A program made the position numbers and the translations under genes. From Thiothrix fructosivorans (GTDB lineage Bacteria; Pseudomonadota; Gammaproteobacteria; Thiotrichales; Thiotrichaceae): a DNA stretch of 64,000 nt. Positions 2,970 to 7,353 of this stretch are shown here, piece by piece. Each line of letters starts with the position of its first letter. Positions within the stretch are counted from its first letter, which is position 1. Below the pieces are notes generated by a model, which saw only the letters and a list, made by a program, of their open reading frames with translations, searched no databases and was not told the origin of the DNA. The stretch is from positions 248,001-312,000 of the forward strand of contig NZ_JAFMPM010000006.1 in assembly GCF_017349355.1 (NCBI RefSeq), read 5' to 3'.

Positions 2970-3001
2970 GCATTGACGCACCGTGACAATGCGCGTTTAA
3001 T
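2970..3001 (+). promoter_or_regulatory. nadM promoter with overlapping inverted repeat
   Basis: A -35 box TTGACG (2973-2978) and a -10 box TTTAAT (2996-3001) are separated by exactly 17 bp. This predicts a transcription start near 3008, right at the foot of the leader hairpin. An inverted repeat GCATTG...CAATGC (2970-2975 and 2987-2992) overlaps the -35 box and spacer and could be a repressor site. The NrtR-type regulators of nadM operons are known precedents, but this site was not matched to their consensus. Confidence 0.6.
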
Positions 3002-3009
3002 CATAAACA

Positions 3010-3054
3010 GCTTGGATAGACCAAGCTCAACCATTCTCAGTAAGGAGCTTACTG
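3010..3054 (+). promoter_or_regulatory. nadM leader: candidate structured RNA with sequestered ribosome-binding site
   Basis: Two hairpins fill the 5' leader. The first is GCTTGG-ATAGA-CCAAGC (3010-3026), six perfect pairs. CTCAAC follows. The second is TCAGTAAG-GAG-CTTACTGA (3037-3055), eight perfect pairs, and it buries the Shine-Dalgarno AAGGAG in its stem and loop, two bases before the ATG. The same first hairpin core and the CTCAAC motif recur before nadV. The arrangement suggests translational control, for example by an NAD-related ligand, but no known riboswitch class was recognised. Confidence 0.5.
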
Positions 3055-3056
3055 AC

Positions 3057-4088
3057 ATGTTCAAACCTGATTTTGATTTTCTGGTCTTCATTGGTCGTTT
3101 CCAACCGTTTCATACGGGTCATCAAGCCGTGGTGGAAACCGCGTTGCAACGTGCCGAGCGCGTGATTGTGCTGGTCGGTTCGAGTTGCCAGCCGCGTACT
3201 TTGCGGAATCCGTGGACATTTACCGAACGTGAAACGTTTATCCGTGCCACGTTTCCTGAAACAGGCGAACGTTTGATGCTTGCGCCATTGCTGGATGATA
3301 CCTACAACGAGCAAGGCTGGATTACCCGTGTGCAACAATCCGTACACGGCATTACGTGCCGTTTCCCGCCCAAAGTTGGCAGTGCCGCGCCGCGTATCGG
3401 CCTGATTGGGCATAGCAAAGACCACAGTTCCTATTACCTGTCGATGTTTCCGCAATGGCAATCGGTCGCAGTGGAAAACGTGCGAGGGGTATCGTCTACG
3501 CCGTTGCGTGAACAGTATTTCCAACGGGGTGCTGCAAATGGCGAGATGCCGCCAGCGGTGCAAAACTGGCTGGAAACCTTCCGCGAATCTGACACCTTTC
3601 AGCACATTGCTAGCGAGTGGGAATTCGTTAACCAGTACCGCAAAGGTTGGGAAGCCGCACCCTACGCGCCGACGTTTGTTACCGTGGATGCAGTGGTGGT
3701 GCAAGCCGGACACATCTTGCTGATCGAACGCAAAGCTCGCCCCGGCAAAGGGCAATGGGCATTACCCGGCGGTTTCCTTGACCCGCACGAAAAGCTGCGC
3801 GATGCCGTCATCCGCGAATTGCGCGAAGAAACCCGCATCAAAGTGCCTGCACCCGTATTGGCGGGGTCGATTGTGAAAGAGCAAGTATTTGACGATCCGT
3901 ATCGTTCGGCACGAGGGCGCACCATTACCCATGCGTTCCTGATTGAACTTAAAGCGGATGCGCACGGCTTGCCGAAAGTGAAAGGTGGCGATGATGCGCA
4001 GCACGCTTTCTGGATGCCGTTGGGCGATCTCGATCCCGAACGGCTGTTTGAAGACCATTTCCAGATCATCAAAACGATGATTGGGTAA
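3057..4088 (+). CDS. nadM: Bifunctional nicotinamide-nucleotide adenylyltransferase / Nudix hydrolase
   Basis: The 343-residue cytosolic protein joins two domains. Residues 1-180 are an archaeal-type NMN adenylyltransferase: IGRFQPFHTGHQ carries the HxGH nucleotidyl-transfer motif at 19-22, and VSSTPLR is the late phosphate-binding motif. Residues 205-340 are a Nudix domain with the box GFLDPHE...RELREE; the usual glycine near its end is replaced (ETRI). The family makes NAD from NMN and ATP and hydrolyses ADP-ribose, or uses the Nudix part as a sensor. The ATG at 3057 has AAGGAG nine bases upstream; an upstream in-frame ATG at 2967 overlaps the promoter and was rejected. It leads the NAD operon. 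Confidence 0.92.
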   Translation: MFKPDFDFLVFIGRFQPFHTGHQAVVETALQRAERVIVLVGSSCQPRTLRNPWTFTERETFIRATFPETGERLMLAPLLDDTYNEQGWITRVQQSVHGITCRFPPKVGSAAPRIGLIGHSKDHSSYYLSMFPQWQSVAVENVRGVSSTPLREQYFQRGAANGEMPPAVQNWLETFRESDTFQHIASEWEFVNQYRKGWEAAPYAPTFVTVDAVVVQAGHILLIERKARPGKGQWALPGGFLDPHEKLRDAVIRELREETRIKVPAPVLAGSIVKEQVFDDPYRSARGRTITHAFLIELKADAHGLPKVKGGDDAQHAFWMPLGDLDPERLFEDHFQIIKTMIG

Positions 4089-4104
4089 CTATTCTCTCTC
4101 TCCA

Positions 4105-4147
4105 CGCTGGATAGACCGGCGTTTAACTCAACACAGGAGGATTTCCT
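4105..4147 (+). promoter_or_regulatory. nadV leader: second copy of the NAD-leader hairpin
   Basis: In the 59-bp nadM-nadV gap, CGCTGG-ATAGA-CCGGCG (4105-4121) forms six pairs, one of them G-U. Compared with the nadM leader, the loop ATAGA and the inner GG/CC are identical. Three outer pairs are swapped compensatorily (G-C to C-G, C-G to G-C, U-A to C-G). CTCAAC recurs at 4127-4132. The Shine-Dalgarno AGGAGG can pair weakly with TCCT (4135-4138 with 4144-4147). The compensatory changes argue for an RNA element rather than a DNA operator. Confidence 0.5.
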
Positions 4148-5530
4148 ATGTTCACTAACTTGATTCTCAACACTGACAGCTACAAAGCCAGCCACTTTTT
4201 GCAATACCCGGCAGGGACGCAAGTGGTGTCATCCTACATCGAGTCACGCGGTGGGCAATTCCCGCAAACGTTGTTCTTTGGCTTGCAGGCGTTCATCAAG
4301 GAATACCTGCTCAAACCTGTCACCACGGCGGATATTGATGAAGCAGAGGCATTATTTGCCGCGCACGGTGTGCCATTTTTCCGCCAAGGCTGGGAACAGA
4401 TTGTGCAGCAATACGGCGGTTTTTTGCCGATTGAAATCCAAGCGTTACCCGAAGGCATGGTTGCTCCGACCGGCAACGCGCTGGTGCAAATCCGCAATAC
4501 TGACCCGCAAGCGTTTTGGTTGACATCGTATCTGGAAACGGCGTTGCTGCGGGCGGTGTGGTATCCGACCACCGTTGCCACGTTGTCGTGGCAGGTGAAG
4601 CAAAGTATTCGCCAATCCCTTGAAAATACTTGCGACAATCCGGTGGCAGAATTGCCGTTCAAGTTGCATGATTTTGGCGCACGCGGGGTGTCTTCGCACG
4701 AATCCGCAGCCCTCGGCGGTATGGCGCACTTGGTCAATTTCATGGGTGGCGATACGGTCGTGGCATTACTAGCTGCACGTAAATATTACGGTGCGGACAT
4801 GGCAGGCTTTTCGATTCCGGCGGCAGAACATTCCACCATCACGGCATGGGGACGCGCAGGCGAAGCCGATGCTTACGCCAATATGCTGCAACAATTCGGG
4901 CAAGCGGGGAAATTGCTCGCGGTCGTCTCCGATTCCTACGACATTTACCACGCCGTTTCCGAGATTTGGGGCAGGCAATTGCGGGCGCAAGTCGAAAACA
5001 GCGGCGCAACCGTGGTGATTCGCCCCGATTCCGGTGTGCCGGAAGACATCGTGCCGGAAGTACTGGAACGTTTGTATGCCGCATTCGGCGGGCACGTGAA
5101 CAGCAAGGGTTATAAGGTATTGAGCGATTGCGTGCGCGTGATTCAGGGCGATGGGGTGGATGTGGATTCCATCGGCGTGATTTTGCAACGCATTCAACAG
5201 GCGGGTTTTTCTACCGAAAATGTCGCGTTTGGCATGGGTGGCGGGCTATTGCAGAAGGTCAATCGCGATACCTTGCGCTTTGCGATGAAGGCTTCGGCGA
5301 TGCAAATCAATGGCGCGTGGCGCGATGTGTATAAGCAGCCGGTGACGGATTCCGGCAAGCATTCCAAGCGTGGGCGGCTCGCGGTGATTAGGGATGCGGG
5401 CGTGCTCAAAACGATTCGTGAAGATGCGCTGTCGTGGGAAAGCAATTTGTTGCGCCCTGTGTTCCGCAACGGTGAGTTGTTGGTGGATGATGGTTTTGAT
5501 GTGATTCGCACTCGGAGCAACCAAGAATGA
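4148..5530 (+). CDS. nadV: Nicotinamide phosphoribosyltransferase (NAMPT/NadV)
   Basis: The enzyme makes NMN from nicotinamide and PRPP, feeding the adenylyltransferase encoded just upstream, so the pair recycles nicotinamide to NAD in two steps. The 460-residue length is typical of bacterial NadV. Landmarks are NTDSYKASH at the N-terminus, HDFGARGVSSHESA, PAAEHSTITAWGR, VVSDSYDIYHAVSEIWG, the PRPP/phosphate region VIRPDSGVPED, and FGMGGGLLQKVNRD. AGGAGG lies seven bases before the ATG. The stop overlaps the ATG of the following, disrupted gene (ATGA), indicating an operon. Confidence 0.94.
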   Translation: MFTNLILNTDSYKASHFLQYPAGTQVVSSYIESRGGQFPQTLFFGLQAFIKEYLLKPVTTADIDEAEALFAAHGVPFFRQGWEQIVQQYGGFLPIEIQALPEGMVAPTGNALVQIRNTDPQAFWLTSYLETALLRAVWYPTTVATLSWQVKQSIRQSLENTCDNPVAELPFKLHDFGARGVSSHESAALGGMAHLVNFMGGDTVVALLAARKYYGADMAGFSIPAAEHSTITAWGRAGEADAYANMLQQFGQAGKLLAVVSDSYDIYHAVSEIWGRQLRAQVENSGATVVIRPDSGVPEDIVPEVLERLYAAFGGHVNSKGYKVLSDCVRVIQGDGVDVDSIGVILQRIQQAGFSTENVAFGMGGGLLQKVNRDTLRFAMKASAMQINGAWRDVYKQPVTDSGKHSKRGRLAVIRDAGVLKTIREDALSWESNLLRPVFRNGELLVDDGFDVIRTRSNQE

Positions 5531-5658: not shown

Positions 5659-5760
5659 CCTTTAAACTTATACAAACTTAACCAAGGTCAAGTTTGCGGT
5701 TAAATTCCTGCTTCATTGGGGCTGGTTTCACCTTCGGTTTGCACCGAGAGCCAGCGCCTT
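5659..5760 (-). ncRNA. Probable omega RNA (reRNA) overlapping the tnpB 3' end
   Basis: TnpB nucleases use a guide RNA transcribed from the element's right end. Here the tnpB 3' end and right end contain nested hairpins. On the minus strand, TCGGT-GCAA-ACCGA (plus 5734-5747) lies inside a GCTGG/CCAGC outer stem (5721-5725 with 5751-5755), followed by the hairpin at 5675-5694. The guide would be read from the flank below 5659, that is, from the deoxyribosyltransferase-like gene fragment. The extent is inferred by analogy with known TnpB systems. Confidence 0.4.
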
Positions 5761-6886
5761 CCCCTCCACAGGCAGACACCGTGGAACTCACGGCATATTT
5801 TTCCAAATTTTTGGCGGCATTGATGTCACGGTCATGGACTACACCACAAAGGGGGCAAGTCCATTCACGTACCGACAGCGGCAGCTTGTCCACTTTATGC
5901 CCACAGCCAGAAGCAGAACACGTCTTGCTGGAGGCAAAAAACCGATCAGCCACCACGACCACCGCACCCCGCCTATCGGCTTTGTATTCCAGTTGCCGCC
6001 GGAACTCGAAAAATCCCATATCACTGATCGCACGGGATAAATGGCGGTTTTTCACCATGCCTGACACGTTCAAATCTTCAATGCCGACGGTGTGGAAACG
6101 GCGGGTCAAATCCGTGGTGAGTTGGTGCAAACTGTTTTGGCGGATGTTGGCGATACGTGCGTGAAGTTTTGCCAACTTCTGTTTCGCCTTGTGGCGGTTG
6201 GCACTGCCTTTGACTTTGCGTGACAAGCTGCGGGATAGCCGTTGTAGGCGGGAAAGCAAGGCTTTATGCGGTTTCGCTCCGACCACTTTTTCCCCCGTTG
6301 ACAGGGTTGCCAGTGCAGATACGCCCAAATCCACCCCCACCGTGCCTTGGTTTTCGGCAGGCGGGAGGTGGTTTTGATCCGTATCCACGGTGATGCTGGC
6401 AAACCACTGATCAGCGTTGCGGGAAACCGTGGCAGAGAGGATTTTACCGGAAAAGCGTAACGTTTCCCGCATCCGTACTAACCCAAGGTTGGGAATGCGG
6501 ATGCGGGATGCGTCGATAGCAAACTGGTCGTTGGTGAGGGTGAAACTGTCGCGGCTTTTGCCTTTCTTTTTGAATTGCGGGTACTTGGCACGTCCTGCAA
6601 AGAAGTTTTTGAAGGCTGCGCCGAGTTGGATAATTGCCATTTGCGGGGCATTTTTGGTGACTTCCAGCATCCACGGGAATTGTTCGCGCTTGATGCTGTT
6701 GAGTTGGCGACGTAGCAACATCTGGTTGGGCTTTGGCTGGCTGTTGTCTTCCTTCCACGCCGCGTATTGGATTTGCCATTCCGCCAATGCCCAGTTGTAG
6801 GCAAACCGCGCTGTACCTGCGGCTTTCGCCAAGTACGTGGCTTGCTTATTGTTGGGGTTGAGGCGGATTTTGTGGCTGATAATCAT
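5678..6886 (-). CDS. tnpB: TnpB, RNA-guided endonuclease of IS200/IS605 family
   Basis: The 402-residue protein looks intact. It has an N-terminal helix-turn-helix region (MIISHKIRLNPNNKQ) and a RuvC-like nuclease with all three acidic positions: aspartate in GVDLGVSA, glutamate in VGIEDLNVSG and aspartate in HDRDINAAKN. The zinc ribbon uses TCSASGCG and CPLC. The family cuts DNA guided by an omega RNA and helps the element persist after transposition. It lies opposite to the operon it interrupts. With catalytic residues and right-end hairpins both preserved, it may be active. Long ORFs on the plus strand here are shadows. Confidence 0.92.
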   Translation of the reverse strand: MIISHKIRLNPNNKQATYLAKAAGTARFAYNWALAEWQIQYAAWKEDNSQPKPNQMLLRRQLNSIKREQFPWMLEVTKNAPQMAIIQLGAAFKNFFAGRAKYPQFKKKGKSRDSFTLTNDQFAIDASRIRIPNLGLVRMRETLRFSGKILSATVSRNADQWFASITVDTDQNHLPPAENQGTVGVDLGVSALATLSTGEKVVGAKPHKALLSRLQRLSRSLSRKVKGSANRHKAKQKLAKLHARIANIRQNSLHQLTTDLTRRFHTVGIEDLNVSGMVKNRHLSRAISDMGFFEFRRQLEYKADRRGAVVVVADRFFASSKTCSASGCGHKVDKLPLSVREWTCPLCGVVHDRDINAAKNLEKYAVSSTVSACGGEGAGSRCKPKVKPAPMKQEFNRKLDLG

Positions 6887-7044: not shown

Positions 7045-7353
7045 TTTAACCCACTGCGCCCGAATTTCCCCATTGATGATCCTTCAGCCTCGGTCTTTCA
7101 AATTCAATGGGAGCATGAATATTTACGCAAAGCCACCGCGATTCTATTTTGGTTTCCAGCAGAAACACTTTGCCCGATTACGCTATACGAATTGGGTGCG
7201 TGGTCAATGACGACGAAACCGTTGTTTGTGGGTGTGCATCCCGATTACGCCCGCATCGCCGATGTGGAATTGCAAACGCGGCTAGTGCGTCCTGATGTTG
7301 AAATTGTGTATTCTGTTCAAGCACTTGCCGCACAACTGCGTCATTTGATGTGA
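7045..7353 (+). pseudogene. Nucleoside 2-deoxyribosyltransferase-like gene, 3' fragment
   Basis: The frame TTT AAC CCA onward encodes FNPLRPNFPIDDPSAS, then ILFWFPAETLCPITLYELGA and FVGVHPDYARIADVELQT, ending at a TGA at 7351. This is the C-terminal two-thirds of the deoxyribosyltransferase-like family and joins in register to SNLTV of the 5' fragment. It has no start or ribosome-binding site of its own, and in-frame stops lie just upstream. Apart from the insertion, the coding sequence shows no damage, so the disruption may be recent. Confidence 0.85.

Follow-up and report, generated by a model that had tools for sequence, protein, structure and literature searches.

What do the look-alike hairpins in front of the neighbouring genes nadM and nadV of Thiothrix fructosivorans do, and what, if anything, reads them? 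A preliminary description of the stretch of DNA in which they lie (64,000 nucleotides, contig NZ_JAFMPM010000006.1, positions 248,001 to 312,000; called the window below) had proposed a candidate NAD-linked regulatory RNA. The conservation, covariation and translational anatomy of the leaders, which we followed through bacteria and phages, give that proposal good support.

Paired leader hairpins in the window

The features of the two leaders, in window coordinates, are as follows.

2973..3001, forward strand: possible nadM promoter, TTGACG-17-TTTAAT, with a predicted start at about 3008, the foot of P1 (custom scan)
3010..3026, forward strand: P1 of nadM, GCUUGG-AUAGA-CCAAGC; 7 bp counting 3009-3027
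3037..3055, forward strand: P2 of nadM, UCAGUAAGGAGCUUACUGA, with the Shine-Dalgarno sequence within loop and arms
3057..4088, forward strand: nadM, bifunctional NMN adenylyltransferase / Nudix hydrolase; NF003786 above cut-off
4105..4121, forward strand: P1 of nadV, CGCUGG-AUAGA-CCGGCG; 7 bp counting 4104-4122
4135..4147, forward strand: P2 of nadV, AGGA-GGAUU-UCCU, a weak 4-bp Shine-Dalgarno hairpin
4148..5530, forward strand: nadV, nicotinamide phosphoribosyltransferase; NAMPT_N and NAPRTase domains; NF006629 above cut-off, a model that bears the name nicotinate phosphoribosyltransferase

Each P1 in the window has an AUAGA loop on a G-C closing pair, with a P2 carrying the Shine-Dalgarno sequence downstream, and the P1 of nadV is intercistronic. 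The preliminary description had seen 6-bp hairpins with a GG-AUAGA-CC core before both genes; their coordinates and core were right, and each stem extends to 7 bp. It had also read the two copies correctly, with three outer pairs differing on both sides and a fourth being U-A in one and U-G in the other, and the perfect 8-bp Shine-Dalgarno hairpin that it reported before nadM is real (3037-3055). Two of its details stood in part. The promoter that it placed at the foot of the nadM P1 was found as TTGACG-17-TTTAAT, with similar letters in some related leaders (by eye), but a stricter promoter scan returned no promoter for nadM. The letters CTCAAC, which it had counted with the hairpins, are present in both window leaders but in only 11 of the 155 leaders with P1 described below (9 of 34 in the family loci), and were rejected as part of the motif.

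Behind nadV lies an IS605 OrfB / TnpB-like transposase (5678-6886, reverse strand), and a reading frame from 5528 (FLAGGITG...) seems to resume near 7050-7350, a gene apparently split by the IS605-type element. Another ADP-ribose enzyme, a microbial-type PARG (PARG_cat_microb, TIGR02452; 7376-8497, forward strand), follows about 1.8 kb behind nadV.

The core sequence GGATAGACC occurs twice in the window against 0.14 expected, a count that 1 of 100 shuffles reaches. Without its stem this 9-mer is not enriched genome-wide (17 copies, 21 for the reversed pattern) and was discarded as a genome-wide signal; among the 17, only the two nad copies sit on a stem longer than four pairs (by eye). Searched at E ≤ 0.5 through the 4.36 Mb genome, a covariance model whose training took in the window hairpins or close relatives of them found the nadM and nadV leaders and nothing else. 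Compared with shuffled sequences, the nadM leader fold gave a z of -3.2 (1/200), with a weaker value for the nadV leader (z -1.8, 9/200).

No Rfam 15 family reached its gathering threshold in the window. At E ≤ 10, the region 2980-4200 gave three chance-level, unrelated matches, none of them NAD+-I or NAD+-II, and a search of 18 further loci gave rRNA, tRNA and one freshwater-2, none at nad leaders. The opinion of the preliminary description that the structure is neither the nadA nor the pnuC motif is thus borne out by the unmatched NAD+-I and NAD+-II covariance models of Rfam. A freshwater-2 cis-regulatory RNA (RF02980) was seen behind nadV in a virus contig (L132:4445-4519). The element is apparently unreported: we found no title or abstract opening describing it in a literature coverage that lacks most subscription papers, which leaves novelty unproven, and the word riboswitch is absent from the main text of PMC9503650.

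P1 in bacteria and phages

Among 57 related genomes searched, 19 contain nadV, and P1 precedes the gene in 18 of these (17 with AUAGA, one with AAAGA); the sole exception, L036, is a homologue at 36% identity. Seventeen nadM leaders of the family carry P1 as well (16 scored; one with an A-A mismatch). In one genome (G004; L035 and L037), the nadV match falls into two pieces about 1.2 kb apart, as if interrupted.

We then took a wider set, made up of the best 80 nadV matches in genomes and the best 80 in virus collections, and in these best 160 nadV loci we counted 108 P1-like hairpins, compared with 17 in reversed sequence. With a strict definition of P1 (G-ANAGA-C with at least four pairs), 155 of the 315 distinct nadM and nadV leaders in the loci collected from bacteria and virus contigs were positive, compared with 48 of 12,975 background windows. 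By gene and source, the positives among distinct leaders were 52/71 (genomes) and 21/68 (virus contigs) for nadM, and 61/101 (genomes) and 21/75 (virus contigs) for nadV. G-AUAGA-C also topped a motif-blind tally of five-letter loops on stems of at least six pairs, with 45 of 146 nadM and 54 of 188 nadV leaders, the second-ranked loop reaching 5/146 and 9/188. Variant loops of the general form X-N-N-G-Y were present in 33 of the 160 leaders without strict P1, compared with 42 of 2,866 background regions, which themselves held some nad leaders; neither strict nor variant P1 was seen in 127 of the 315 leaders. The hosts of P1 include, according to their records, Thiothrix, Thalassolituus, Microbulbifer, Pseudoalteromonas, Methylococcales, Budvicia, Pragia and Campylobacterota MAGs, along with one cyanobacterial MAG contig that is possibly misbinned.

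We inspected 14 regions of named phages. Xanthomonas phage LucasX and Rhodobacter phage RcXuper each have canonical P1 upstream of nadM and of nadV, which speaks for a partner that moves together with the two genes, or for no partner at all. By eye, variant hairpins occur in Erwinia phage pEa_SNUABM_47, and one precedes nadM in both Cronobacter phage GAP32 and Mesorhizobium phage Cp1R7A-A1. No form of P1 was seen on inspection of the regions of RB43 (two), 44RR, Va3, TCU-VP03-AIR1, BUCT608, Astolliot, phiN3 and Marchewka.

Covariation and anatomy of P1 and P2

The preliminary description had tied its proposal to a covarying hairpin before orthologous genes. Such hairpins are present, and both P1 and P2 covary strongly. 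The P1 alignment contained 102 of 116 non-redundant hairpins, with the last 14 of a list that ends with the weakest stems omitted; since its members were picked by loop and pairing, bias affects the constant loop columns and the proportion of cells that are paired, but not the variety of pairs. Double-sided changes occur at seven of the eight stem pairs, in 360 cells compared with 125 after shuffling, giving a covariation score of 0.978 compared with 0.205. An A-A mismatch recurs at the fourth pair below the loop (13 of 155, for example L072:2932). For P2, we used 81 nadM leaders (75 distinct) that were picked for P1 and anchored at the Shine-Dalgarno sequence irrespective of pairing, and found 171 double-change cells compared with 50 shuffled, with a score of 0.929 compared with 0.195.

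The P2 pentaloops are mostly GGAGN or GGAUU. A pentaloop hairpin in the Shine-Dalgarno region is found in 92 of 98 nadM and 69 of 95 nadV leaders with P1, compared with 63 of 201 other Shine-Dalgarno-led ORFs, and any hairpin of at least four pairs in 98/98, 90/95 and 131/201, respectively. Such pentaloop hairpins are common in leaders without P1 too (nadM 28/41, nadV 50/81). The Shine-Dalgarno letters are paired no more often with P1 than without it (nadM 0.40 and 0.36, nadV 0.46 and 0.44), while the mean folding z of the region is -1.55 with P1 compared with -0.67 without it for nadM, and -1.03 compared with -0.70 for nadV. The distance from the end of P1 to the Shine-Dalgarno sequence has a median of 15 nt (quartiles 13-16, range 8-33; measurable in 101 of 155), and inspection by eye revealed no consistent loop-loop or loop-tail complementarity.

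Near-restriction to nadM and nadV

Applied to 34 genomes, the covariance model matched in 30 at E ≤ 0.5, and the four misses all have P1 or P1-like leaders, which shows the limited sensitivity of the model. The 58 places listed comprised 41 at nadM or nadV by position, one at an SPFH gene adjoining nadV and 16 elsewhere; two of these 16 fell under the script threshold and the other 14 looked, by eye, like coding sequence or terminator-like chance matches. A wider P1 regulon was rejected on the basis of these matches. DNA-pattern scans of virus contigs gave, among the matches listed, 11 strong hairpins followed by a Shine-Dalgarno sequence and a start codon, eight of which belong to nadM or nadV. 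In two loci, an SPFH/band-7 gene adjoining nadV has a P1 of its own (L072:4524, L091:5455). In Brevundimonas phage Marchewka, a flotillin gene lies shortly upstream of nadM, with one small gene between them.

The presence of P1 follows the pair of enzymes. NadM was found in 32 of 33 records with typed P1 on nadV, compared with 4 of 27 with P1-less nadV, the 27 being drawn from 31 loci with neither typed P1 before nadV nor an adjoining nadM, with virus records that may be fragments. The 33 comprise 24 genomes with P1 on nadV, all of which have NadM, and nine further records, of which eight do; L062, whose P1 was recognised only by eye, has NadM as well. In G430, the one record where we could find no NadM, the P1 of nadV is weak (4 bp), and the record may be incomplete. 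In two of the four NadM-bearing genomes with P1-less nadV (Microbulbifer), nadM itself carries P1 (by eye).

Later samples were chosen by homology and not for P1. In genomes with both genes, P1 was present on nadM in 5 of 7 cases (L575 typed by sequence and L578 by a widened loop pattern), the misses being the second nadM copy of G986 and L569, and on nadV in 6 of 6, L583 and L584 weakly with four pairs only. In genomes with one gene, P1 was absent from all 13 nadM leaders of nadV-less genomes (six of them already seen earlier) and from all eight nadV leaders of Campylobacterota scored as NadM-less by a search without its own positive control. A further 17 NadM-less nadV leaders (0/17 with P1) are uninformative, having been chosen for lacking P1. 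In a published survey, every NadM-containing phage examined is reported to have NadV as well (PMC9503650), which fits the link of P1 to the gene pair. In four nadV-less gammaproteobacteria (L570-L573), the Nudix box of NadM lacks the usual EE pair (RELRERVRL or RELRERLRL), a change that suggests altered or lost hydrolase activity.

A loop code matched between the two genes

Variant loops include C-AGAGA-G, G-GUAGU-C, C-AGUGA-G and G-GGAGU-C, and in Hydrogenophaga and Variovorax a GUUGA loop precedes both genes. Among 104 non-redundant two-gene loci, both leaders could be assigned a loop type in 66, one in 27 and none in 11. The type agrees within the locus in 62 of the 66, compared with 43.1 on permutation (0 of 10,000 as high), where the types were set after the leaders had been inspected, two of them (A* and F) purely from sequence, and the permutation takes no account of relatedness; where a type other than A is involved, 11 of 15 loci agree. 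The stem arms are scarcely more similar within a locus than between loci (0.29 and 0.25; 45 loci), indicating that neither leader was recently copied from the other, and in 8 of 45 loci nadM and nadV have different letters at the second loop position. Matched loop types on unrelated stems point to a shared trans-acting partner.

Proposed mechanism and alternatives

Judged by comparison of leaders across genomes, P1-P2 is a real cis-regulatory RNA element, characterised by its hairpins, its loop rule, its link to the gene pair, the matching of loop types and its near-restriction to nadM and nadV, with SPFH genes in two loci. It probably controls the output of both enzymes. The free stem, the constant pentaloop, the close Shine-Dalgarno hairpin and the matched loop changes fit a translational operator with a shared macromolecular partner, most likely a protein and perhaps NadM or NadV itself, which are the simplest candidates because P1 co-occurs with both enzymes. 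From these features we infer translational control, as well as the protein nature and identity of the partner and the direction of control.

In the model that we favour, P1 would serve as the recognition hairpin, its stem sequence being free and its pentaloop read specifically (X-N-N-G-Y, with X/Y being A/A, G/U or G/A; AUAGA in the window), and P2, shortly 3' of P1, would present the Shine-Dalgarno sequence in a small hairpin. A protein present in cells and phages equipped with the two enzymes, in the simplest case NadM or NadV, would bind P1 and change ribosome access at P2, and translation of both genes would probably be lowered when enzyme or NAD supply suffices. We give this two-hairpin operator, bound by a protein that alters the translation of both genes, a probability of roughly one half. 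A more specific version, in which NadM (or NadV) moonlights by reading the pentaloop on both messages, loop code and enzymes have drifted together and the whole circuit travels in phages along with the two genes, is tentative. The trees single out neither protein (9 loop-type changes on the NadM tree, 11 on the NadV tree), four NadM residues that had separated proteins with and without P1 failed in new genomes, where 5 of 8 proteins without P1 have both basic ones, and net charge marks neither NadM nor NadV as RNA-binding.

A metabolite of the same route could account just as well for the link to the gene pair. The main rival is a switch of the kind inferred in the preliminary description, a very small riboswitch in which P1 (with P2) would bind NAD, NMN, nicotinamide or ADP-ribose directly and the Shine-Dalgarno hairpin would report it, much as in the two-hairpin guanidine-II riboswitch; we hold it less likely than a protein partner but give it serious weight. 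Its occurrence in distant bacteria and virus contigs makes a self-contained RNA attractive, as do the link almost solely to NAD salvage genes and the two hairpins with the second at the Shine-Dalgarno sequence; against this, conservation in P1 hardly extends past the pentaloop and the pair that closes it, and the loop types are matched within a locus, a pattern that co-evolution with a metabolite could not produce but shared descent could mimic. NAD or NMN sensing should also help the NadM-less Campylobacterota, whose eight sampled nadV leaders lack P1, and it would be useful in the 23 of 27 records with P1-less nadV that show no NadM.

If the partner is a protein, it might still be a third RNA-binding protein that co-occurs with nadV and nadM and has P1 as its operator. 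Such a protein would explain the matched loop types just as well, and the tree and residue tests single out no enzyme, but it would be needed in diverse bacteria and in phages or their hosts, and we regard it as improbable. Still harder to sustain is a passive leader structure that protects the message or tunes initiation with no partner: Shine-Dalgarno hairpins do occur in nad leaders without P1, and P1 lies close to where the nadM message is predicted to start, but a passive stem needs neither a constant loop nor matched loop types nor a link to the partner gene, and the P1 of nadV is intercistronic in the window. A palindromic DNA operator, for example of NrtR, is scarcely credible even with NrtR-like Nudix regulators in 16 of 28 P1-bearing genomes tested (none above the family cut-off), as the letters of the stem vary while pairing is kept, where such an operator would hold its palindrome fixed, and P1 sits downstream of the predicted promoter and ahead of the start codon for nadM, and in the gap separating nadM from nadV for the latter.

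In the window's genome, where no full-length NrtR-like match was found, P1-P2 may be the main dedicated control of NAD genes. Were NadM or NadV to bind P1 as we propose, enzyme or NAD status would be linked to translation by NAD-salvage enzymes that regulate themselves. The element would constitute an undescribed class of cis-regulatory RNA, with 155 distinct examples in the loci collected, tied to the route from nicotinamide to NAD and carried by phages as well, with a loop code that changes between lineages yet stays matched between the two genes. It can be tested directly, as an example of either a minimal RNA that senses a metabolite or enzymes that read their own messages.

Comparison with known systems

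NAD+-I (the nadA motif, with tandem aptamer domains) and NAD+-II (the pnuC motif) are likewise leader RNAs of the NAD pathway, whose structure contains or adjoins the ribosome binding site. The pnuC motif is reported to lie upstream of pnuC in Streptococcus and to contain P1, P1a and a possible pseudoknot (PMC7749635). P1-P2 differs from both in consisting of two plain hairpins before nadM and nadV, with no Rfam match.

NrtR is a transcriptional regulator of NAD genes that responds to NAD metabolism; it resembles the present system in controlling NAD genes and differs in acting on DNA and in having no full-length homologue in the window's genome. Guanidine-II (mini-ykkC) RNAs also combine a small hairpin with a second one close to the Shine-Dalgarno sequence, and the short conserved loop is ACGR in both. 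Here, in place of two ACGR tetraloops, the P1 loop is mostly ANAGA, AUAGA being commonest, P2 holds the Shine-Dalgarno sequence in GGAGN or GGAUU loops, no Rfam match was found and the genes are unrelated.

P1-P2 can also be likened to operators bound by proteins, for instance coat-protein and boxB hairpins, CsrA sites and thymidylate synthase autoregulation. CsrA sites would have GGA in both hairpin loops, and P1, with AUAGA, lacks that core, while P2 holds GGA as most Shine-Dalgarno sequences do. With protein operators in general, P1-P2 would share a free stem with a specific short loop, an operator near the Shine-Dalgarno sequence and an enzyme binding its own message; as in autogenous operators, the P1 stem covaries freely beneath a specific loop, and the element lies close to the ribosome binding site, at that same median of 15 nt and with P2 at the Shine-Dalgarno sequence itself.
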